Assembly: GCA_028717525.1 (NCBI GenBank)
Contig: JAQUNT010000019.1
Span: 1 to 12,578, forward strand
DNA: 12,578 bases
Source: Elusimicrobiota bacterium
Lineage (GTDB): Bacteria > Elusimicrobiota > Elusimicrobia > UBA1565 > UBA9628
Direction of reading: 5' to 3'
In this document: one piece after another, positions 2,777 through 12,578 of the stretch
Layout of the letters: each line of letters opens with the position of its first letter
How positions within the stretch are numbered: the stretch's first letter is position 1
Notes under the pieces: generated by a model
What the model was told of the DNA's origin: nothing
What the model saw: only the letters and a program-made list of their open reading frames with translations
The model's database searches: none
Position numbers and translations under genes: made by a program

Positions 2777-3037
2777 TCAAGCGTCTATGGACACATCCGT
2801 CTTGGGGACCGCGACGCACGTCAAGATCATGTTCTGCGCCCGGTCTTCATCCTGCAGCCCGTCCTGGGTCTCCATCTGCACTTCTCCGGACAGCAATTTG
2901 ACCTTGCAGGTCCCGCAGATCCCCACCCTGCAGACATTGTCTATTTGGATTCCATTGCCCTCCGCGCATTCCAGGATGCTGGCGAATCTGGCATCCCACT
3001 CAACCGTCTTGTTTGACTTCACGAATGTGATCCTCAA
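2777..3037 (-). CDS. Plant-type [2Fe-2S] ferredoxin (TTG start)
   Basis: Small electron carrier of 86 residues. The cysteines C36, C41, C44 and C74 give the CX4CX2CX29C pattern of plant/adrenodoxin-type [2Fe-2S] ferredoxins, in CRVGICGTC and LTC contexts. The start is a TTG at 3037 whose TGA overlaps the stop of the upstream DUF488 gene (TTGA). A strong GGGGAGG sits 7 nt upstream, which decides this start. The frame continues open further upstream, but that part lies under the DUF488 gene in another frame and has no ferredoxin sequence. Its partner oxidoreductase is not evident. Neighbouring redox and iron proteins (CPYC thioredoxin-fold, hemerythrin) suggest a shared redox context, which is inference. 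Confidence 0.9.
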   Translation of the reverse strand: MRITFVKSNKTVEWDARFASILECAEGNGIQIDNVCRVGICGTCKVKLLSGEVQMETQDGLQDEDRAQNMILTCVAVPKTDVSIDA

Positions 3038-3615
3038 CTGGCGACCTCCCCAGGCGCAGCGACTGCCCCTGGCTGCGGGTAGGTCACATGCTCGCCTTGG
3101 ACCTTGGCGATCCTTGTCAAAGCGTGGGGCTTGGCGTTGCCGGGACTGAAAATATTCCGCACCGCGATGCCTCGCGCGGTGAGCGCATCGGCGATCAAGG
3201 AGCGGTGGCAGCGCCATGGGACAGCCTCGGCGCACATGATGGCTGCGGGTTTGCGGGCCGCCTGGGAGATGAGCCGCCCCAAGGCCGCTTGAAATCGCTC
3301 GGTCTGCATGTAGTCGGCGAAGCCCCGGAACGAGGCATTGCGCCAGCCCTGGTTGACCGTCAAGCCCGCCCTGGCATGCCGCAGCCCGCCCAGGTCCTTC
3401 ATGTGCCGATATCCGATGCGGCGATTGCGCAGGGCCTTGCCCAGGGTCTCCATGTTGAACTGCGGATTATGCCGGGAACGCGGGATGCTCCGGACGTCCA
3501 CCAGTTGCCGGATCCCGTGCGCCCGGAGCAGAGCGACAAGATCCTCAAGAGACCGCGTCGAATGGCCGACCGTGAAGATCGTTCCGGCCGCAGCCGCAGA
3601 AGTCCTAAGGTCCAT
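3034..3615 (-). CDS. DUF488 family protein
   Basis: The 193-residue protein matches the DUF488 family. It has TVGHSTRSLEDLVALLRAHG near the N terminus (15-34), VDVRSIPRSRHNPQFN (39-54), and the signature CAEAVPWRCHRSLIADAL (128-145), with its conserved Cys, Glu, Cys and His. The family's biochemical function is not established; the conserved Cys/His cluster suggests metal binding or catalysis. The ATG lies two bases after the DUF929 stop and no clear SD precedes it, so translation is probably coupled. It ends by overlapping the ferredoxin start. Confidence 0.9.
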   Translation of the reverse strand: MDLRTSAAAAGTIFTVGHSTRSLEDLVALLRAHGIRQLVDVRSIPRSRHNPQFNMETLGKALRNRRIGYRHMKDLGGLRHARAGLTVNQGWRNASFRGFADYMQTERFQAALGRLISQAARKPAAIMCAEAVPWRCHRSLIADALTARGIAVRNIFSPGNAKPHALTRIAKVQGEHVTYPQPGAVAAPGEVAS

Positions 3616-3617
3616 GA

Positions 3618-4253
3618 CTAGGGCGCGGGCGTTCCATGAACGAGGACGCTCTGGGCTTGCTCCACCAAGCCCGCGATCTCGGGTTCCCTGAAGAGCTGCA
3701 ACGGCAAACCGGCCAGGCAGGCCAGGGCGCAGATCACGTTCGCTTCGGTCTCGACCGCCTGACCGAGCGATGTCGCGCGATCTTGGGCCTGGGCTTGCGC
3801 CTGCGAGAACGAGAGTCCGGCCAGCAGCGACAGCTTGACGCCTGAGCCGACCTGCGTGAAGCGGCCCCCGATCAGGAGGAACGGGATGTAGCCTTTCGGG
3901 TCGAACTTCCTCACCAGCGGAGCGTCGGCCTGGGCAGGCTTCTGCAGCGGCCGGAACTCCCGGTCATCCGTCTCGCACGCGGCGAATTCCACGTGCTCGC
4001 TGCCGTAGGCGGCGGAAGCGAAATCATAGGTGGGCAGATCCAGCCATGGCTCGTCCCGGGAAGCGCTGGAACTCTCCTTGAGCCCGCTCCAGCGGCCGAA
4101 CCGCTCCAGCGCGCGCACGATGGCCCACCTTTCGCCCGCGCAGTACGGGCAATAGCCGGCGCTCATGAAATAGACATACAGTTTGCCGTTGCGCCTGAGA
4201 GTCTCCGTCCCGGCTTCGATGAATCTGCCCAAGATCCTCCGTGGTTTGTCCAT
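3618..4253 (-). CDS. DUF929 thioredoxin-fold protein with CPYC motif
   Basis: Around residues 26-50 the product reads YVYFMSAGYCPYC followed by AGERWAIVRALERFG. This is the DUF929 pattern: a thioredoxin-like strand, a CPYC redox pair (C35, C38) and a helix beginning GERW. A later segment, KGYIPFLLIGGRFTQVGSG, matches the cis-Pro and strand region of thioredoxin folds. No signal peptide or membrane helix is visible, so it is probably cytoplasmic, although some relatives are exported. The ATG at 4253 is chosen because GAGG lies 6 nt upstream; an in-frame TTG at 4259 lacks comparable spacing. It follows the hemerythrin gene after about 20 nt. A thiol-disulfide role is inferred from the CPYC motif. 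Confidence 0.85.
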   Translation of the reverse strand: MDKPRRILGRFIEAGTETLRRNGKLYVYFMSAGYCPYCAGERWAIVRALERFGRWSGLKESSSASRDEPWLDLPTYDFASAAYGSEHVEFAACETDDREFRPLQKPAQADAPLVRKFDPKGYIPFLLIGGRFTQVGSGVKLSLLAGLSFSQAQAQAQDRATSLGQAVETEANVICALACLAGLPLQLFREPEIAGLVEQAQSVLVHGTPAP

Positions 4254-4274
4254 CTTCAACCTCGCAACTACATC

Positions 4275-4868
4275 TTAGCGCGGCCTGATAAAATCCCGGT
4301 CAAGCCGGCTCTGCCCCTCTTTTGATTGCGTCGCGGCCCTCAATTCATCCGCCAGCTCTTCAAGTCGATGATGGTTCTCCCGGCCGATCCGCTCTTCCAC
4401 GGCCTCGAATCGCTCCAGGAGGCTCTTCTGCTCCTCAGCCGAGAGCAGTTTGTCGGTCATCGGAAACAGCAGAAAATTCTCTTTCCAGATATGGCCCGGA
4501 TACAGCGCCACGAGTCCGCGTAAGGCCTCCAACAGGGATTCGCGCCGGCGCGGCGCGCTTGCCGGGGAATCGGCCGCCAGGGTCAGCTGGGCGACCAGCT
4601 TCCTGCCCGACTCGTGCTCGTGGGTGAGGGCTCCGAGAGGGCATCCGGTCACCGGCACGCCTTTGCGCACAAGCAGAGGAAAGAGGATGCGTTCCTCCTT
4701 CTCATGGTGGCAATTCTCGACGTAATCGCGCATGAAGCGGATGATACGGCCAAGGACCTCCTGGTCGGGCCCCTCTGCGGGATTGTCAGCGAGCGCGGCT
4801 GCGCAGGCGATGACCTTTTCAATGGCGTGGTGCTCTTCTTCGAGGATCTTTGTGGCGCTGCTCTCCAT
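4275..4868 (-). CDS. Hemerythrin HHE-domain protein
   Basis: The 197-residue protein carries the hemerythrin-like iron ligand pattern in a four-helix arrangement: EEEHH (H13, H14), NCHHEKEE (H54, H55, E58/E59), LTHEHESG (H83, H85) and PGHIWKENFLLFP (H126, E130). Such proteins bind a non-heme di-iron centre and take part in O2, NO or peroxide sensing or repair of iron centres; which applies here cannot be told. The charged C-terminal helix resembles longer cytoplasmic HHE proteins. An AGGGGG lies 5 nt before the ATG. It is the first gene of the minus-strand cluster and is divergent from the gene at 4917. Confidence 0.92.
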   Translation of the reverse strand: MESSATKILEEEHHAIEKVIACAAALADNPAEGPDQEVLGRIIRFMRDYVENCHHEKEERILFPLLVRKGVPVTGCPLGALTHEHESGRKLVAQLTLAADSPASAPRRRESLLEALRGLVALYPGHIWKENFLLFPMTDKLLSAEEQKSLLERFEAVEERIGRENHHRLEELADELRAATQSKEGQSRLDRDFIRPR

Positions 4869-7280: not shown

Positions 7281-7305
7281 GTCAGGATTTGTCAGCGCTT
7301 GTCAG
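7281..7305. repeat. Three GTCAG direct repeats at 10-bp spacing
   Basis: GTCAG occurs at 7281-7285, 7291-7295 and 7301-7305, exactly one helical turn apart; the last two extend to TTGTCAG. They lie upstream of the likely histidine kinase promoter and overlap the last codons of the B3/B4 gene. The phasing suits a tandem regulator site, but no protein can be named. Confidence 0.4.
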
Positions 7306-8035
7306 GCCGGCCGGAGCCCAGGAGCACGGTCCGGACTGAGGAGGCCCCGCCGAACCGCTCGAGCAAAGCGGCGAAGCGGCCGGCCAAGGCGGCGAGCTCC
7401 CGGCCCGGGGCGCAGTCCAGGCTGGCGTAGACGACTCCGATGACCGCGGTCGTATCGTCTTTGAGCTTGGCGGCCATGGAATCCTTGACCGCGTTGCCCA
7501 GGGGGGCTCCTTGCTCCCCTTCGCCGGCGCCTGCGGTATCGGAAGTTCCGCAGGTGCCGGCGGGACGGATTTCCTTACCGCCGGCGCAGACGCAGATGAG
7601 CCCCTCGAGCTCGATCTCCTGGCCGGCGCTGTTGAAGACGTAGCGCTCCCCGGGCCGGCCGCGGCGCAGCCAGGCCGGGCCCGGGAAGGCGCGCAGGTCC
7701 AGGAGGCTGATGGGCAGGCCGCTCTCCAAGGAGAGCAGGTTGTTGACGTCCACGAGGTTGTTGATGCGCGGGAAGCGCCCCTCGCGCGCGGCCTGGGCCA
7801 GGTACTCGCTGGCGGGCTTGTTGCGGCCGGTGGGCTTGAAGCCCCCCCGCCGCAGCAGGCCGCGCACGGCGTCCTTGACCGGCGCGGGCGGGAAGTCCTC
7901 GAGCGCCCGCCGCGCGGCCAGCTCGTCGACCAGCCGCCCCAGTTCCGCCGGAGCCGCGGCCACGCGCACGCCTTCGGCCAGCACGACCGCGGCCGCGAAG
8001 GACTGGTCGGGAACGAGGTTCTCGATGGTCGTCAT
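7292..8035 (-). CDS. B3/B4-domain protein with in-frame repeat insertion
   Basis: The 247-residue protein matches the stand-alone B3/B4 domain, related to the editing region of phenylalanyl-tRNA synthetase beta chains. Recognisable blocks are FKPTGRNKPASEYL (66-79), FPRINNLVDVNNLLSLESGL (88-107), ERYVFNSAGQEIELEGLICV (130-149) and PLGNAVKDSMAAKL (178-191). Homologues are thought to act in trans on misacylated tRNA or to bind amino-acid-like ligands; activity here is inferred only from family. Between ICVC and PLGN, residues 150-171 are encoded by a dispersed repeat element (7524-7586), adding EIRPAGTCGTSDTAGAG in what should be a short loop. The frame is intact, so the protein is probably functional. 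Its ATG is 22 bp from the divergent ATG at 8058, with no SD seen. Confidence 0.88.
   Translation of the reverse strand: MTTIENLVPDQSFAAAVVLAEGVRVAAAPAELGRLVDELAARRALEDFPPAPVKDAVRGLLRRGGFKPTGRNKPASEYLAQAAREGRFPRINNLVDVNNLLSLESGLPISLLDLRAFPGPAWLRRGRPGERYVFNSAGQEIELEGLICVCAGGKEIRPAGTCGTSDTAGAGEGEQGAPLGNAVKDSMAAKLKDDTTAVIGVVYASLDCAPGRELAALAGRFAALLERFGGASSVRTVLLGSGRPDKR
7524..7586 (+). repeat. Coding palindromic element, copy 1
   Basis: A 63-bp dispersed element inside the B3/B4 gene. Hairpin 1 pairs 7526-7536 with 7548-7558 (11 bp including one G-T). Hairpin 2 pairs GCCGGCGG (7556-7563) with CCGCCGGC (7578-7585), 8 bp, perfect. CCGGCGC occurs as a direct repeat at both ends. The element is open in one frame on each strand. 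The host gene reads the minus strand (EIRPAGTCGTSDTAGAG); the plus strand would read PAVSEVPQVPAGRISLPPA. It differs from copy 2 at only 3 of 63 positions. Confidence 0.9.
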
Positions 8036-8045
8036 CGGGAAACGC

Positions 8046-8052
8046 TATGATA
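8046..8052. promoter_or_regulatory. Overlapping divergent -10 elements
   Basis: TATGAT (8046-8051, plus) would start transcription at about 8058, which is the ATG itself. The minus strand reads TATCAT over 8052-8047, giving a start near 8040, five bases before the ATG at 8035. Both lie in the palindrome TGATATCA within a 22-bp intergenic gap. No good -35 is visible on either side. Confidence 0.35.
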
Positions 8053-8057
8053 TCAAA

Positions 8058-9833
8058 ATGACCGGGACGGTCCTGGCCAAAGCCCTCGCCCTCTGGTACT
8101 CGCCGGCCTTCCAGGAGCTGCTGCGCCCGGTCCGGACGCTGAGCGCCATCAGCGCCATGTTCTGGATGCTGGCGCGCCTGGCGGCCCTGTTCATGGCCGG
8201 GCTCAAGACTTTGCTGCCCGAGGAGCTCGGCGTCCTCCTGGCCATAGTCTGGAACATCGTCCTGTCCGTCGCCTACGCGGCCATGATGTTCTACACCGCC
8301 CTGCAGGGGAATTGGCACCCCTCCCTGCCGGCGCGCGAGGCCTGCGGCTTCGTCTTCATGTACGTCATGCTGGGCGTCACCTTCACGGACCGCGCCACCG
8401 GCCGCCTGCAGCCGGTCGCCCGCCCCGGCTTCTTCATCGGGATCAGCGCCTACCTCTTCCTGGCCCTGGCGCCCTCGGTGGCGCGCCTGCCCGTCTTTGC
8501 CGAGTCCCACCGCGTGCTCGAGCTCTTCGCCGCGGGCGGCTGGGGCAACGTCATGACCGCCCTGACCGCCGCGCTCATGCTCTGGTCCTTGCTGGCCTGG
8601 ACGGTCTCGGAGGTCGCCTACAGCCTCAGCCCGCTGCTCTTCCGCCTGAAGCTCATCAAGGCCCCGCTCATCCGCTTCCGCGACCTGCCCGCGGACGGGG
8701 AAGATGGCGCGCCCGCGCGGCGCATCGGGGCGGTCCCCTCCATGCGCCGCTCCGTGCTCATGCTGGCCCTGCTGGCGGCGGGCGCCGGCGCGGCGCTGCG
8801 CTGGTGGCCGCAGCTGCGCGCCGGGGCCCGGGCCGCGGCGCCCGCCATACAGAGCCGGGCCCAGTCGCCCCAGGCCGCCGAGGCCGCGGCCCGGCTCAAG
8901 CGCGTGCTGCCCGCGGTCTCATTCACCGCGGTGCGCTCCCTGCCCAGGCAAGGCCCGGTGGCGGAGCTCGCCCGCCCGGCCTTCCGCAAGCTGTTGGCCG
9001 CGCCCGCCCAGGCGGACCGCTGGCTCGCGGCCGCGGCCCTCGACCGCGTGGATCCCTCCTTCCGCATCTCGCCCCAAGAGCTCTTCCGCTCCACGGCCGC
9101 CGCGTCCTGGGACTGCGCCTGGCAGGGCCGCGCCTTCCAGGTGCTCATGCAGCCCCTGCCCGGCGACGAGCCGGCCAAGACCCGCACCTACTGGGTCTTA
9201 GACGAGCGCGGCCTCCATTTCACGGGAGTGGGGCCGGGGGAGCTGAGCGAGGTGGCCGGCTCCAGCGCCTGCGCGGTGGCCGCCTTCGGCTCGGCCGACG
9301 GCGCGCTGCTGCTGGCCTTCACCGAGGCCCCGGCCGAGCCCGGCGCCGCGCCGCGCCTGTGGCTGACCGCCTACTCCCCGACCCGGCGCGAGGTCCTCGC
9401 CGCGGCGCGGCTGGGCGAGAACGCCTCGGGCGATTTCGCCCTGGCCGAGGCCGCGGGCGGCGTAGTCTGGGCCGACGCGCCGGCGAGCACCGCGGCCGCG
9501 GCCTGCCGGGGCGACTGCGGCGAGGTGCTCGGCGGCCGGGCGCTGTCCTCGGCCGTCGAGCCCCTGGTGGAGTACCGCCGCTCCGCGGCGGCGGGCGGCG
9601 CGATCCGCACCGCGGCGAGCCTGGAGCAGACCTTCGCGCACAGCGGCCTGGACCGGCACTTCGCGTCCCTGGCGGCCTTCGCGCGGGCCTTCCGCTTCGA
9701 CCCGGAGGCGGGGTTCCTCAACCGCTGGTACCGCCGGGCGCGGCTGGTCGACGGCCGGGACTGCGTGAGCGTCGCGCTCGACCCGTCCTGGCCCGGTTGG
9801 GAGGCGAAGGACGCCTGGACCTGCGCCCAATGA
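8058..9833 (+). CDS. Large membrane protein of unknown function
   Basis: The 591-residue product has five hydrophobic segments in its first 190 residues (about 29-50, 57-80, 96-113, 123-145, 165-187). A charged stretch and a further membrane segment follow near 232-248. The C-terminal domain of about 340 residues, rich in Ala and Arg, carries scattered cysteines (DCAW, CRGDCGE, DCVS, and TCAQ at the end) and is probably extracytoplasmic. I recognise no family or catalytic motif. The ATG at 8058 is chosen because the longer open frame lies under the divergent B3/B4 gene; it has no SD but a -10-like TATGAT just upstream. It is followed after 40 bp by the AcuI/YhdH gene, which has its own promoter-like sequence. 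Confidence 0.75.
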   Translation: MTGTVLAKALALWYSPAFQELLRPVRTLSAISAMFWMLARLAALFMAGLKTLLPEELGVLLAIVWNIVLSVAYAAMMFYTALQGNWHPSLPAREACGFVFMYVMLGVTFTDRATGRLQPVARPGFFIGISAYLFLALAPSVARLPVFAESHRVLELFAAGGWGNVMTALTAALMLWSLLAWTVSEVAYSLSPLLFRLKLIKAPLIRFRDLPADGEDGAPARRIGAVPSMRRSVLMLALLAAGAGAALRWWPQLRAGARAAAPAIQSRAQSPQAAEAAARLKRVLPAVSFTAVRSLPRQGPVAELARPAFRKLLAAPAQADRWLAAAALDRVDPSFRISPQELFRSTAAASWDCAWQGRAFQVLMQPLPGDEPAKTRTYWVLDERGLHFTGVGPGELSEVAGSSACAVAAFGSADGALLLAFTEAPAEPGAAPRLWLTAYSPTRREVLAAARLGENASGDFALAEAAGGVVWADAPASTAAAACRGDCGEVLGGRALSSAVEPLVEYRRSAAAGGAIRTAASLEQTFAHSGLDRHFASLAAFARAFRFDPEAGFLNRWYRRARLVDGRDCVSVALDPSWPGWEAKDAWTCAQ

Positions 9834-9860
9834 GCCTCCCGCGGGTTCCGCATTCCGGGG

Positions 9861-9866
9861 TATAAT
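9861..9866 (+). promoter_or_regulatory. Consensus TATAAT -10, likely leaderless start
   Basis: A perfect TATAAT ends at 9866, which predicts a transcript start at 9873, one base before the ATG at 9874. No SD is present and no good -35 is visible 16-18 nt upstream. If this is the promoter, the acuI-like mRNA is essentially leaderless. Confidence 0.5.
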
Positions 9867-9873
9867 ACCCGGG

Positions 9874-10881
9874 ATGAATCCCTGCAAAGCCTTTCGGGTC
9901 TTCCAGGAAGGCGGCCGGGCCCAGGGGCGCTTCACGGAGATGCGCCTGGAAGAGCTCGCTCCGGGCGAGGTGCTGGTCAAGGTGGAACTCTCCAGCGTCA
10001 ACTACAAGGACGCCTTGGCCGGCACCGGCGCTCCCGGGCTCATCCGGCGCTTCCCCTGCACGGCGGGCATCGACCTCTGCGGGACCGTGGCCGAGTCCGC
10101 GGACCCCGAATTCAAGCCCGGAGACGGGGTCCTGGCCACCTGCTGCGGACTAGGCGAGAGCCAGGACGGCGGCTACGCCGAGTACTGCCGCGTCCCGTCG
10201 GCCTGGGCCGTGCCCCTGCCCGCGGGCCTGAGCCCCTTCGAGGCCATGGCCTTGGGCACGGCGGGCTTCACGGCCGCGCTGGCCTTGCAGCGCCTGGAGC
10301 ACGAGGGCCTGCGCCCGGGCCAGGGCCCGGTCATCGTGACCGGAGCCACCGGCGGCGTCGGCAGTCTCTCCATCTGCCTGCTGGCCCAGGCCGGCTACCG
10401 CGTGACGGCTTTGACCGGCAAGCCCGACCAGGAAGGCTGGCTCAAGGGCCTGGGGGCCAGCGAGGTCCTGCGCCGGGACTCCCTGGACTTCTCCCGCATC
10501 AAGCCGCTGGGACAGGCCGTCTGGGCGGGGGCCGTGGACAGCCTGGGCGCGCAAGCCCTCTCCTGGCTGGCCTCCACCATGCTTCCGGGCGGCGCCATCG
10601 CCAGCATCGGGCTGGCCGCGGGCGCCGCATTCTCGGCCACGGTCATGCCCTTCATCCTGCGCGGGGTGTCCATCCTGGGCATCAACGCCCTGAGCGTGGA
10701 GGCCGCGCCCCGCCGCGCGCTGTGGCGGCGCCTGGCCGGCGAGCTCAAGCCCCGCGCCCTGGACTCCATCGCCGAGCCGATCGGCTTCGCGCAGCTGCCC
10801 GAGGCTTTCAGCCGCATGCTCGCGGGCAAGGTCCGCGGGCGCTCCGTCGTGAGGATCAGCGGCCCAGAAGCGAGTCGCTGA
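9874..10881 (+). CDS. AcuI/YhdH-type NADPH-dependent oxidoreductase
   Basis: This 335-residue member of the zinc-independent MDR superfamily is closest to the YhdH/YhfP and AcuI group, whose characterised members reduce acrylyl-CoA with NADPH. Diagnostic blocks are SSVNYKDALAGTG (40-52), FPCTAGIDLCGTV (60-72), DGGYAEYCRVP (98-108), FEAMALGTAGFTAALALQRL (122-141) and the nucleotide-binding GATGGVGS (157-164). The length is normal for the family. It has no zinc-ligand cysteine set of alcohol dehydrogenases. No dddL- or propionate-type neighbours are visible to fix the substrate, so a general acrylyl-CoA or quinone reductase role is inferred. The 3' end overlaps the convergent flavoprotein gene by 26 bp. 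Confidence 0.92.
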   Translation: MNPCKAFRVFQEGGRAQGRFTEMRLEELAPGEVLVKVELSSVNYKDALAGTGAPGLIRRFPCTAGIDLCGTVAESADPEFKPGDGVLATCCGLGESQDGGYAEYCRVPSAWAVPLPAGLSPFEAMALGTAGFTAALALQRLEHEGLRPGQGPVIVTGATGGVGSLSICLLAQAGYRVTALTGKPDQEGWLKGLGASEVLRRDSLDFSRIKPLGQAVWAGAVDSLGAQALSWLASTMLPGGAIASIGLAAGAAFSATVMPFILRGVSILGINALSVEAAPRRALWRRLAGELKPRALDSIAEPIGFAQLPEAFSRMLAGKVRGRSVVRISGPEASR

Positions 10882-12010
10882 AGAACTTCCTGTAGTCCGA
10901 CTCGCCGGAGAGCACGCGCAGGAAGCGCTTCATGGCGCCCGTGCCGGCGCGGAAGCGCCGCATGGCCAGGCTGCGGAAGGGCTCGCGGAAGAGCAGGTTG
11001 CGCGCGCGCAGGGCCTGCGCGAAGAGCGGGGTGATCTCGCTGCGGCAGGCCGCGTTGTAGCGCGCGGCGCAACCGGCGCCTGCGGTATCGGAAGTTCCGC
11101 AGGTGCCGGCCGGACGGAATTCCTTACGGCCGGCGCCTGCGAGCATGCTCTGCGCGGCCAGGGCGCCGCTGTGCAGGGCGAAAGCGATGCCCTCCCCGGT
11201 CAGCGGCTCGGCGAAGCCCGCCGCGTCTCCGCAGAGCAGGACCTGGCCCGCGGCCGGCTCGCGCAGGAAGGCCGCGTTGGGGAGTTTCGCCCCGCGCAGC
11301 TTGAGGCTTTGGGAGCCGGCCACGCCGCAGTCCGCGAGCAGGCGGCGCATGGCCGCCGCGAGGTCCTCCTTGGTGCCGGGCATGCCTCCCAGGCCGATGG
11401 AGACCCGCTCGCCCTTGGGGAAGGCCCAGCCCCAGCCCAGGCGCAGGTAGCCGAAGAAGATGCGCGCCGCGTGCAGGCCGGCCAGGGCCGGGCTGGCCGA
11501 GCGCGGCACGTCCACCTGCAGGCCCACGGCCAGGCTGCGGTCCGGCAGGGACTTGCCCTGGGCCCGGCCCACCGCGCTGAAGACCCCGTCGGCCCCGACG
11601 ATGCGGCCGCAGCGCAGCTCCCGGCCGTCCACCACGGCCGCATCGCCGCGCAGGCCCTCGAAGCGCCCCGGCTCCACCCGGCAGCCGGCCCCGCGCGCCG
11701 CTTCCAGGAGGAAGGCGTCGAACCGGTCCCGGAACACGAAGGTCAGGGGGGCTTCGCCTTCCGCGGAGTTGAGCAGCTCGCGGCCGTCGCAGATCTCGAA
11801 GCCGGCGCAGACCTCCCCCACCACGGAAGCCGGCAGCTCGAGCCCCAGGCGCTCGCGCAGAAGGCGCAGGGCCCGGCCGCTCAGGAGCCCCCCGCAGAGC
11901 TTGTCGCGGGGCAGGGCCTTGTCCACCATGAGCACCTCGCGGCCGGCGCGCGCCAGCAGGATGGCCGCGGCGCAGCCCGCGGGCCCGGCCCCGACGATGA
12001 GGGCGTCCAT
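10856..12010 (-). CDS. Geranylgeranyl-reductase-like FAD oxidoreductase with repeat insertion
   Basis: The 384-residue flavoprotein belongs to the geranylgeranyl reductase/FixC-like group. It has an N-terminal FAD dinucleotide fold (DALIVGAGPAGCAAAILLAR, 2-21), the family DKLCGGLLS motif (36-44), GADGVFSAVGR (139-149) and the second FAD motif LLCGDAAGFAEPLTGEGIAF (258-277). Members reduce isoprenoid double bonds on lipids, quinones or chlorophyll chains; the substrate here is unknown. Residues 292-313 are encoded by repeat element copy 2 and add EFRPAGTCGTSDTAGAG after the helix LHSGALAAQSML, before the C-terminal helical region, a likely surface site. The frame is intact. No SD precedes the ATG; TACAAT (12025-12020) would start transcription three bases upstream. 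Confidence 0.9.
   Translation of the reverse strand: MDALIVGAGPAGCAAAILLARAGREVLMVDKALPRDKLCGGLLSGRALRLLRERLGLELPASVVGEVCAGFEICDGRELLNSAEGEAPLTFVFRDRFDAFLLEAARGAGCRVEPGRFEGLRGDAAVVDGRELRCGRIVGADGVFSAVGRAQGKSLPDRSLAVGLQVDVPRSASPALAGLHAARIFFGYLRLGWGWAFPKGERVSIGLGGMPGTKEDLAAAMRRLLADCGVAGSQSLKLRGAKLPNAAFLREPAAGQVLLCGDAAGFAEPLTGEGIAFALHSGALAAQSMLAGAGRKEFRPAGTCGTSDTAGAGCAARYNAACRSEITPLFAQALRARNLLFREPFRSLAMRRFRAGTGAMKRFLRVLSGESDYRKFFSDSLLGR
11073..11135 (+). repeat. Coding palindromic element, copy 2
   Basis: A 63-bp copy inside the flavoprotein gene, 60/63 identical to copy 1. Stem 2 is GCCGGCCG paired with CGGCCGGC, where copy 1 has GCCGGCGG with CCGCCGGC, so two of the three differences preserve a base pair. 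The 12-mer CCGGCGCCTGCG occurs at the left end (11073-11084) and again across the right end (11130-11141). The host gene reads the minus strand in the same frame as in copy 1. Confidence 0.9.
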
Positions 12011-12016
12011 GCGATA

Positions 12017-12044
12017 TTGATTGTAGATAAATTCGCGCTATACT
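12017..12044 (+). promoter_or_regulatory. Promoter for the secreted-protein gene
   Basis: TTGATT (12017-12022), a 16-bp spacer and TATACT (12039-12044) predict a start near 12051, three bases before the ATG at 12054. The region is markedly AT-rich compared with its surroundings. It overlaps the minus-strand TACAAT (12020-12025) of the divergent flavoprotein gene, so the two promoters share sequence. Confidence 0.5.
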
Positions 12045-12053
12045 TATGGGCGG

Positions 12054-12578
12054 ATGATGAACGCGGCCCTGCTCTGCGCCCTGCTCGCCCTTTCGGCTCA
12101 CGGCCAGCCCGGGCCCGGAGGCCCCCCCTTCCCGCTGCCCGACCCCCGCCGGCTCGCGGCCGAAGTGAGGATGTCGCCCACCACGGCCCGCAACGCGCAC
12201 CTGCGCTTCCGCAGGCTCATGGGCGTCGTCGAGTTCGCGGGGCGGCCGCCGCAGACCGGGGTCAAGGACCTCATGCGCATCCGCCGGCTCCTGCAAGAGG
12301 GCAGGCTGACCCAGGCCGCGCCGCTCATCGACGCGGCGATCCTGGCCATGGAGGGGCCCGGCGCTAGGCCGCCCGGCGCACCTGCGGCAGCGGAGATTCC
12401 GCAGGTGCAGGCCGGACGGATCTCCTCACGGCCGGCGCCGGCCATATTGGAGGTCCCGCAAAAGGAGCTCGGCGCTCCCATCATGCTCTCGCAGCCGGCG
12501 CAGAGCCGGCCCATCGAGCACCCGGCCCCGCCGGCCGAGTTCGCGCCGGCGGCGCCCGCCGAGCCGCCGCAGCCGCGC
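12054..12578 (+). CDS. Predicted secreted protein, 3' end cut by window
   Basis: The 175 visible codons begin with a signal-peptide-like segment (MMNAALLCALLALSAHG, cleavage plausible after AHG; no lipobox). A Pro-rich linker follows, then a helical charged region at about 40-100 (RNAHLRFRRLMGVVEF, DLMRIRRLLQEGRLTQAA). A long Pro/Ala-rich tail runs on past the window edge. I do not recognise a family. Residues 107-128 come from repeat element copy 3, here read on the element's other strand as PAAAEIPQVQAGRISSRPA. Two adjacent ATGs (12054, 12057) are possible starts. The opposite-strand open frame covering this region is a shadow: the plus frame has the signal peptide and a promoter. Confidence 0.7.
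   Translation, partial: MMNAALLCALLALSAHGQPGPGGPPFPLPDPRRLAAEVRMSPTTARNAHLRFRRLMGVVEFAGRPPQTGVKDLMRIRRLLQEGRLTQAAPLIDAAILAMEGPGARPPGAPAAAEIPQVQAGRISSRPAPAILEVPQKELGAPIMLSQPAQSRPIEHPAPPAEFAPAAPAEPPQPR
12373..12437 (+). repeat. Coding palindromic element, copy 3 (diverged, reversed relative to its gene)
   Basis: A 65-bp copy, alignable to copy 1 with 9 substitutions and a 2-nt insertion. Hairpin 1 is a perfect GCACCTGCGG/CCGCAGGTGC. Hairpin 2 has one mismatch (GCAGGCCG with CGGCCGGC). It has the same orientation in the window as copies 1 and 2, but its host gene is on the plus strand. The peptide is therefore read from the opposite strand of the element (PAAAEIPQVQAGRISSRPA), and the frame is still open. 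Confidence 0.85.

Follow-up and report, generated by a model that had tools for sequence, protein, structure and literature searches.

Passages of the literature on palindromic and small mobile DNA inside genes describe several systems: the RPE of Rickettsia are dispersed palindromic repeats of about 150 bp, found in frame in unrelated genes (PMC10969869); enterobacterial RU repeat units are small mobile sequences of 103–168 bp, also in frame inside genes (PMC2759123); PARCEL repeats are translated palindromic DNA forming 25-residue tandem domains (PMC2996958); and the mitochondria of Nematomorpha carry coding palindromes in conserved protein parts that are not repeat-family insertions (PMC6649704). 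In the relevant passages of PMC3733652 and PMC3116915, REP dimers and REPINs are units of two adjacent hairpins with singlets as remnants, some dimers have a 1–2 bp spacer, intragenic dimers encode 20–30 residues, and members occur in Opitutus terrae and as RPE-4/6 of Rickettsia conorii. CGTC REPs are portrayed there with an unpaired CGTC end, a stem of 8–9, a loop of 4–5 and a short tail (PMC3733652), and a part of PMC8266576 has IS200/IS605 elements picking the cleavage site by short pairing with element DNA next to a hairpin.

The element described here shares in-frame insertion into unrelated genes with RPE, from which its description sets it apart: 55 nt, two separate hairpins, a 2-nt duplication, a target-matched linker and another phylum. 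RU repeat units are likewise in frame and differ, by description, in length and architecture; PARCEL and nematomorph palindromes are likewise translated but differ in the features given above. The two-hairpin unit, tiny linker and intragenic members recall REP dimers and REPINs. GTAG REPs and REPINs have an unpaired GTAG at the base of the palindrome, which is lacking here, where the bases next to the stems come from the flanking dinucleotides, usually CG; nor was an associated RAYT or dedicated Y1 gene found in the genomes searched. CGTC REPs differ too, as stems here are 7 and loops 11 and 14, with no CGTC tag. Short pairing between element and target is a likeness to IS200/IS605. Those elements are not known to duplicate their target, whereas the target is duplicated here; their guide belongs to the element, and no matching transposase is shown here. 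Target duplication and a flank-matched linker are not mentioned for REP dimers or REPINs in the passages of PMC3733652 and PMC3116915.

Three copies in three genes

The window, the whole 12,578-nt stretch analysed (contig JAQUNT010000019.1 of an Elusimicrobiota bacterium), was reported in the initial annotation to hold a 63–65-nt two-hairpin element inside three genes, with frames undisturbed. Ab initio detection recovered copies at 7524–7587, 11073–11136 and 12375–12438, and the host frames are open across all three. The two hairpins stand as described; the length does not, the unit being 55 nt plus a 2-nt duplication, 57 nt net. With 2 nt per side, each window copy measures 59 nt. Copy 1 (7528–7586, plus strand, flanking CG dinucleotides included) consists of CG at 7528–7529, hairpin 1 at 7530–7554, linker TG at 7555–7556, hairpin 2 at 7557–7584 and CG at 7585–7586. 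Copy 2 (11077–11135, plus strand, both CG flanks included) has CG at 11077–11078, hairpin 1 at 11079–11103, linker TG at 11104–11105, hairpin 2 at 11106–11133 and CG at 11134–11135. The CCGG ahead of both is host sequence in a preferred context. The diverged copy 3 (12379–12437, plus strand) has differing flanks, CA (12379–12380) on the left and CG (12436–12437) on the right, around hairpin 1 (12381–12405), linker TG (12406–12407) and hairpin 2 (12408–12435). Identity to copy 1 is 95% for copy 2 and 80% for copy 3. With DNA parameters, each copy folds into two hairpins (−21.5, −21.5 and −19.0 kcal/mol for copies 1, 2 and 3; folding z −4.67, −4.61 and −3.40). The best match elsewhere in the same genome has an E-value of 1.4e-27, and at least 46 own-genome matches reach E ≤ 5.1e-12 (40 of 87 candidates scored). 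The three window copies are confirmed as real, far beyond chance.

Copy 1 lies in a gene for a B3/4-domain protein (7292–8035, minus strand; PF03483, E-value 1.2e-9), where it is read in the AGGKEIRPAGTCGTSDTAGAG frame and forms a loop between two strands; residues 161–168 have pLDDT below 50 in a model averaging 91.4. The host of copy 2 encodes an FAD-dependent protein (10856–12010, minus strand; PF01494, E-value 9.5e-14) whose best homologues carry the name geranylgeranyl reductase family. Its model, of mean pLDDT 91.9, places the copy in a loop (294–308) between helices 274–293 and 309–325, with values of 64 and 52 for the block. For each of these two proteins, none of the other 119 homologues among the matches listed carries the insert. 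Copy 3 is in frame within a Pro/Ala-rich open reading frame (12054–12578, plus strand) that has, by eye, a signal-peptide-like start, runs past the contig end and gave no match in a Pfam search.

Empty sites in relatives

At copy 2, exactly 57 nt are missing in three relatives (G001, G006 and G039); at copy 1, 57 nt are missing in the G006 orthologue and 54 in the G003 and G001 orthologues. Copy 3 sits within a Pro/Ala-rich stretch, with flanks partly conserved in G001, and the comparison gave no clear empty site for it. The relatives demonstrate insertion for copies 1 and 2. The initial annotation had looked to orthologues lacking the insert, and two of the three window genes have them; it had also set against its proposal an insert shared by distant homologues or a lack of copies elsewhere in the genome, and neither was seen. 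Among the 29 copies with any cross-genome comparison, 9 have one or more relatives in which exactly 57 nt are missing, and other length differences occur in 13, which counts against the explanation proposed below. A larger repeat gives a clear-cut pair of states: with the element (TG...TA...TG) at L139 and L142 of G001, and without it, with a single TG, at L130 of G001 and L149 of G006.

A high-copy family of one genus

The suspicion that three copies in one window reflect a high-copy family was borne out in this genome and its relatives. A pattern search counted 65 hits in the window's genome (22 + 43) against 9 (5 + 4) for a reversed control pattern, and 24–39 against 3–10 in three congeners; the fourth congener, G004, holds 6 copies by the structure model. 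Two others, G002 and G005, have none. All three window copies are members of a high-copy family found in one Elusimicrobiota genus. Within that phylum, the structure-model scan found carriers in 7 of 340 genomes, of which one holds a sister family and one is a probable mis-binning. The pattern count alone does not exceed controls in G004 (8 against 12) or G044 (8 against 14), and copies there rest on the other searches. Spread to another family, suggested by G044, is probably mis-binning, since contigs G044:C105 and G006:C152 terminate in the same copy. Carriage by phages or plasmids was rejected: viral contigs gave no exact-pattern match, and plasmid and phage collections no blastn match.

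The sister family, in G012, has a unit length of 30 + 33. Among its 12 complete standard copies, all but one have the linker CA regardless of flanks, and its 4 copies with a non-CG flank all have differing flanks, so the linker rule set out below lacks support there, a point against the explanation proposed below.

A linker that matches the target

The search gave 119 copies at E < 1e-6, a half copy among them. We dropped 1 at a contig edge and 9 in which either stem had under 6 paired positions (a gapped copy included), leaving 109; removing tandem neighbours left 103, and removing near-identical flanks 96 or 97, depending on filter order. The unit is a 55-nt hairpin pair: stem 7 with loop 11, a linker of 2, and stem 7 with loop 14. 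Stem positions are 98.3% paired and the stems covary, with 69 double-change cells against a comparison value of 21.7.

The target dinucleotide, XY, is mostly CG in the context GG-XY-C; G occupies the two preceding positions in 77 and 75 of 103 copies. Right and left dinucleotides agree in 81 of 97 non-redundant copies, and the 16 with differing flanks count against the proposed explanation. Where the left flank is not CG (n = 35), 22 right flanks are identical against 1.9 expected and at most 9 in 20,000 shuffles. The linker is the reverse complement of the copy's own duplicated XY, usually with one G.T-type wobble, in 79 of 81 copies, including all 22 whose target is not CG (shuffles of these: mean 4.6, maximum 12), by a rule derived from the very copies scored with it. 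A rule-free test gave 20 double-change cells between linker and left flank (3.7 in shuffles) and 19 between linker and right flank (4.1). In the wobble form, on one strand, the linker begins with T facing a purine Y, and its other letter complements X. This linker–target rule is a new observation, invisible from the window alone.

A cut-and-paste MITE with a 2-bp target duplication would account for the duplication observed, and the outer ends of hairpin 1 and reversed hairpin 2 are alike in sequence (CCNGNNGTA). Its linker would have come to match the flanks later, through palindrome correction in replication or selection on the folded strand; correction of imperfect palindromes is a known mutational process. 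Correction predicts perfect complements, yet 67 of 81 linkers have exactly one wobble and 12 are exact, and an IS630-type DDE_3 gene occurs in G004 alone among 8 genomes searched. We regard this origin as improbable. The near-universal single wobble also counts against the account we prefer.

Proposed mode of insertion

We propose, with a probability of roughly 75% for the explanation as a whole, that the family consists of non-autonomous mobile DNA elements; that it is a mobile element of some kind is very probable indeed. Comparison of the copies establishes, at the level of sequence, a precise 57-nt presence/absence, a 2-nt duplication, covarying stems, the linker rule and retention in four of six frames. 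Insertion at XY would duplicate the dinucleotide, giving XY-hp1-linker-hp2-XY and adding 57 nt. The mobile form may be a folded single strand served by an enzyme acting in trans, possibly a closed 57-nt dumbbell with linker and XY opposed between two 7-bp arms. At insertion the linker would pair with the target, or the target would be copied into the linker during strand joining. We lean slightly towards such a folded-strand route with linker–target pairing. More tentatively, XY might be laid down three times (XY-hp1-rc(XY)-hp2-XY) by an undescribed route, the inverted imprint of the landing site being made at insertion and not inherited. The target letters found between the hairpins are a trace that can be read for every insertion and that narrows the possible mechanisms; if made at insertion, this imprint points to a novel means of attaching folded single strands to DNA.

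Mobilization of a REPIN-like element by a Y1 tyrosine transposase (RAYT or IS200/IS605 type), in which the linker, inherited as a guide, base-pairs with the target, would fit the two hairpins, the single-strand logic and the short pairing stretch, and guide-type choice of cleavage site is reported for IS200/IS605 in a part of PMC8266576. Y1_Tnp genes are present in the copy-rich genomes G000, G001, G003 and G006 and in G012. None was found in G004 (93% complete, 6 copies), and the element-free genomes G002 and G005 have them. Among 30 Y1 rows, the carriers do not group as a clade (8 changes, a number as low arising in 84 of 500 shuffles); one of 12 Y1 neighbourhoods contained a (half) copy, and a parent transposon with the same ends was recognized in none. 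GTAG is absent beside the stems. Ten identical-body copy pairs share their linker in 20% of cases against 36% of all pairs, so inheritance of the linker with the body is not seen, in a test made weak by the conservation of bodies. Linker class gave a weak nearest-neighbour signal before duplicate removal (p = 0.043), which counts against our explanation. On balance, Y1 mobilization seems unlikely, if less so than the MITE origin. Y1/RAYT, IS110, reverse transcriptase, serine recombinase and IS630 genes were sought through five Pfam families, which revealed no parent transposon, and none co-occurs cleanly with the element; this counts against our explanation too, though such absences are not proof because the genus genomes are 79–99% complete.

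Copies within genes

The initial annotation proposed a coding-tolerated mobile or non-autonomous repeat family with a substantial share inside reading frames. The copies, the empty sites and the in-frame share support it: of 116 classified copies, 42 are in frame inside genes, 47 have one coding flank and 8 have none. GTAG REPs and REPINs are mostly extragenic. The tolerance is qualified, copies being rarer in genes than random points judged by the same score (36% against 56%).

The near-identical peptide in two window proteins, and the position of some copies at contig ends, might suggest a conserved protein motif or regulatory RNA in unrelated genes, or an assembly artefact. Motif and RNA are excluded by the use of four of six reading frames on both strands and by the insert-free homologues among the matches listed; scanning the window and three loci against Rfam returned tRNAs only, and copies lie within contigs of several genomes. 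A non-mobile origin of any of these kinds is exceedingly improbable.

The Arg-rich sense phase accounts for 1107 of 4369 GGCGC sense sites in long open reading frames and 0 of 25 sense copies, and the stop-bearing antisense phase for 1689 of 4406 GGCGC sites and 1 of 34 antisense copies. These counts demonstrate that in-gene copies avoid the stop-bearing and the arginine-rich frame. Selection would purge copies that are read in either of these frames. The family is a compact, abundant example of mobile DNA through which ordinary enzymes gain a loop of 19 residues with the frame intact, and may serve as a gauge of protein tolerance to insertions. Frame neutrality follows from length, 27 + 30 nt or 19 codons here and 30 + 33 in the sister family.

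A repeat of two covarying hairpins

The three copies that the initial annotation reported in the window, lying in a B3/4-domain gene, a flavoprotein gene and a Pro/Ala-rich ORF, were found again ab initio, and its suggestion of a high-copy family was borne out by at least 46 BLAST matches (E 5.1e-12 or better) in the source genome, G000 of the Elusimicrobiota (3.02 Mb, 562 contigs, 79% complete), of which the window is contig C19; the count is a lower bound with 40 of 87 candidates scored. The fetched stretches yielded 119 copies, nearly all full length, and the 97 non-redundant ones form a gap-free alignment of 59 columns. In the window orientation the element reads XY - CCTGCGG(TATCGGAAGTT)CCGCAGG - linker - CCGGCCG(GACGGATTTCCTTA)CGGCCGG - XY, where XY, the flanking dinucleotide, and the linker between hairpins 1 and 2 are two letters each. 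The unit of 55 + 2 = 57 nt divides into 27 + 30, both multiples of three. Covariation is seen in both stems: 98.3% of cells are paired, double changes occur in 7 of 14 pairs, and double-change cells number 69, where shuffles give 21.7 and sliding the partner gives no more than 8. There are also half copies (hairpin 1 alone or hairpin 2 alone), one triple copy (hairpins 1-1-2) and several tandem pairs with a 57-nt period, and one copy on contig C277 of G000 seems to lie within a degenerate hairpin 1, in its loop.

Empty sites and target duplication

The clearest case of insertion is a larger dispersed repeat, which carries the element at two loci of the congeneric genome G001 (L139, L142) and lacks it at another (L130) and in a second congener, G006 (L149:10348). 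Its empty form reads GTYTG-CCGGGCGC and its filled form has TG on either side of 55 nt; the mobile body is therefore 55 nt, with two letters duplicated. This larger repeat, which starts near GCAGGCTGCTGAT in G001, looks like an IS end or a MITE.

Orthologues without the insert, anticipated in the initial annotation, do exist: exactly 57 nt are absent from the flavoprotein gene in three relatives, and the B3/4 gene lacks exactly 57 nt in one relative and 54 in two. The proposed alignment of host proteins with homologues gave the same picture. When an insert was scored as absent at 70% gaps or more across it, the other 119 of the best 120 homologues lacked it, both for the flavoprotein (of 3482) and for the B3/4 protein (of 2092). 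Among 29 copies with any cross-genome comparison, exactly 57 nt are absent in at least one relative for 9 and 58–59 nt for 2 further copies; for 5 copies, at two gene regions, both genomes carry an element, and the remaining 13 differ in length in other ways.

The linker matches the target

Of 97 copies, 81 have the same dinucleotide on the left and on the right. Because CG dominates, the informative test of duplication lies in the 35 copies with a non-CG left dinucleotide, 22 of which have an identical right one (1.9 expected; never more than 9 in 20,000 shuffles). For 79 of the 81 identically flanked copies the linker matches the reverse complement of XY, perfectly in 12 and with a single C-to-T change at its 5′ letter on one strand in 67. 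All 22 such non-CG copies fit (shuffled mean 4.6, maximum 12), the fit rule having been read from these same copies; plain linker/flank pair counts, which do not use the rule, give double-change cells above all 500 shuffles. Put differently, the linker on one strand is T N′, in which T stands opposite a purine Y and N′ complements X. The commonest XY/linker/XY combinations among 109 copies are CG/TG/CG (48) and CG/CA/CG (16); others are GG/TC/GG, CA/TG/CA, TG/CA/TG, TT/AA/TT, TC/GA/TC, TA/TA/TA and AG/TT/AG.

Ten pairs of copies with identical bodies share the linker in 20% of cases, versus 36% over all pairs. In a biotin-carboxyl-carrier-like gene region (identified by eye), the G000 copy, about four codons from the site in the congener G003, has CG/TG/CG, and those of G003 and G006 have TG/CA/TG. 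These different linkers on identical bodies, and the difference between the genomes, favour a linker that is set at insertion. Conservation of the bodies is so strong, however, that identity dates them poorly, and the linker could instead be a heritable guide. The biotin-carboxyl-carrier-like region is struck near the gene start in three species (L009, L172, L161), and may be an insertion hot spot.

Folded as a closed strand, the 57 nt would give a dumbbell with 7 + 2 + 7 pairs and loops of 11 and 14 nt, placing linker and XY opposite each other. Most likely, we infer, a single strand folded in this way becomes joined at XY to its target, served by an enzyme acting in trans, the linker being fixed by pairing with the target or by copying of it. 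In the genomes searched, none of Y1 transposases, IS110, reverse transcriptases, serine recombinases and IS630-type enzymes tracks the element. Of these five families, Y1 alone was found in each of the genus's four copy-rich genomes; the Y1 genes of carrier genomes form no clade.

Insertion within genes

Coding context was called for 116 copies with a periodic Markov score trained on the fetched DNA, at thresholds set by choice. Both flanks are coding in 61 copies (on one strand in 58, continuous in frame in 42, open through the element in 39), one flank in 47 and neither in 8. Scored in this way, 842 of 1500 random points fall within a continuous frame. The expectation that a substantial share would lie in ORFs held insofar as about a third of copies are inside genes, but they are rarer there than random points.

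The element uses four reading frames; the stop-bearing frame and the open Arg-rich frame are unused, apart from a single copy that has coding sequence on one side only. The preferred target GGCGC lies in the stop-bearing phase at 1689 of 4406 antisense sites of long ORFs, versus 1 of 34 antisense copies, and in the Arg-rich phase at 1107 of 4369 sense sites, versus 0 of 25 sense copies (one further copy could not be placed). Because sites in the disfavoured phases are common and copies there nearly absent, we interpret the frame bias as the result of selection acting on inserted copies. In AlphaFold models, both tested window inserts form low-confidence loops between well-predicted strands or helices.

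Distribution and relation to known repeats

An exact 35-nt pattern, searched in one genome per species over 84,980 species, gave 10 matching stretches, none outside three MAGs of Elusimicrobia: G006 (JACRDS, NC_groundwater_1678_Pr3), G044 (JACRDO) and G004 (CAIRTQ). Matches to a 19-nt pattern of hairpin 1 (3 mismatches allowed), versus those to a control pattern, number 65 versus 9 in G000, 38 versus 10 in G001, 39 versus 9 in G006, 24 versus 3 in G003, 4 versus 15 in G005 and 0 versus 6 in G002. G004 (8 versus 12) and G044 (8 versus 14) do not exceed background by this count, yet BLAST detects 8 matches in G004 and 4 in G044, and the structure model 6 and 4. Among 340 genomes of the phylum, a covariance model of the 97 copies detects the family (E < 0.001) in 7, namely five of the genus's seven, G044 and, in diverged form, G012. 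The G044 copies are doubtful because contigs of two public bins, G044:C105 (L303) and G006:C152 (L302), terminate in one shared copy, likely one genome split between two bins at the repeat.

G012, of another genus in the same taxonomic family, holds a sister family (L258–L264, L036, L042, L048, L054) of two hairpins with loops of 14 and 17 and a unit of 63 nt = 30 + 33. Flanks are mostly CG. Of 12 complete copies, 11 have CA as linker irrespective of their flanks, and the linker rule is therefore not demonstrated there. One copy (L042) has its hairpins in a different order.

Known palindromic repeats within genes include RPEs (PMC10969869) and intragenic dimers of GTAG and CGTC REPs, which encode 20–30 residues and in some cases have 1–2 bp spacers (PMC3733652). 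Unlike these dimers, our element has neither their tags nor, in the genomes searched, a RAYT partner, and its stem and loop sizes differ from those of CGTC families. In the portions of the literature on such repeats that were searched, we found no description of target duplication with a target-matched linker. We file the element with intragenic palindromic repeats as a variant, the comparison with RPEs being by description only (PMC10969869, PMC3733652).

Other features of the window

At 1593–1623, just upstream of a minus-strand gene that by eye resembles a synthetase, lies a hairpin with a perfect stem of 13 bp and a loop of 5 bases; a tRNA-Met occupies 1738–1811 on the minus strand. A gene run at 3034–4868 encodes a DUF488 protein and a hemerythrin-domain protein, both assigned by Pfam, and a CPYC-motif protein recognized by eye.
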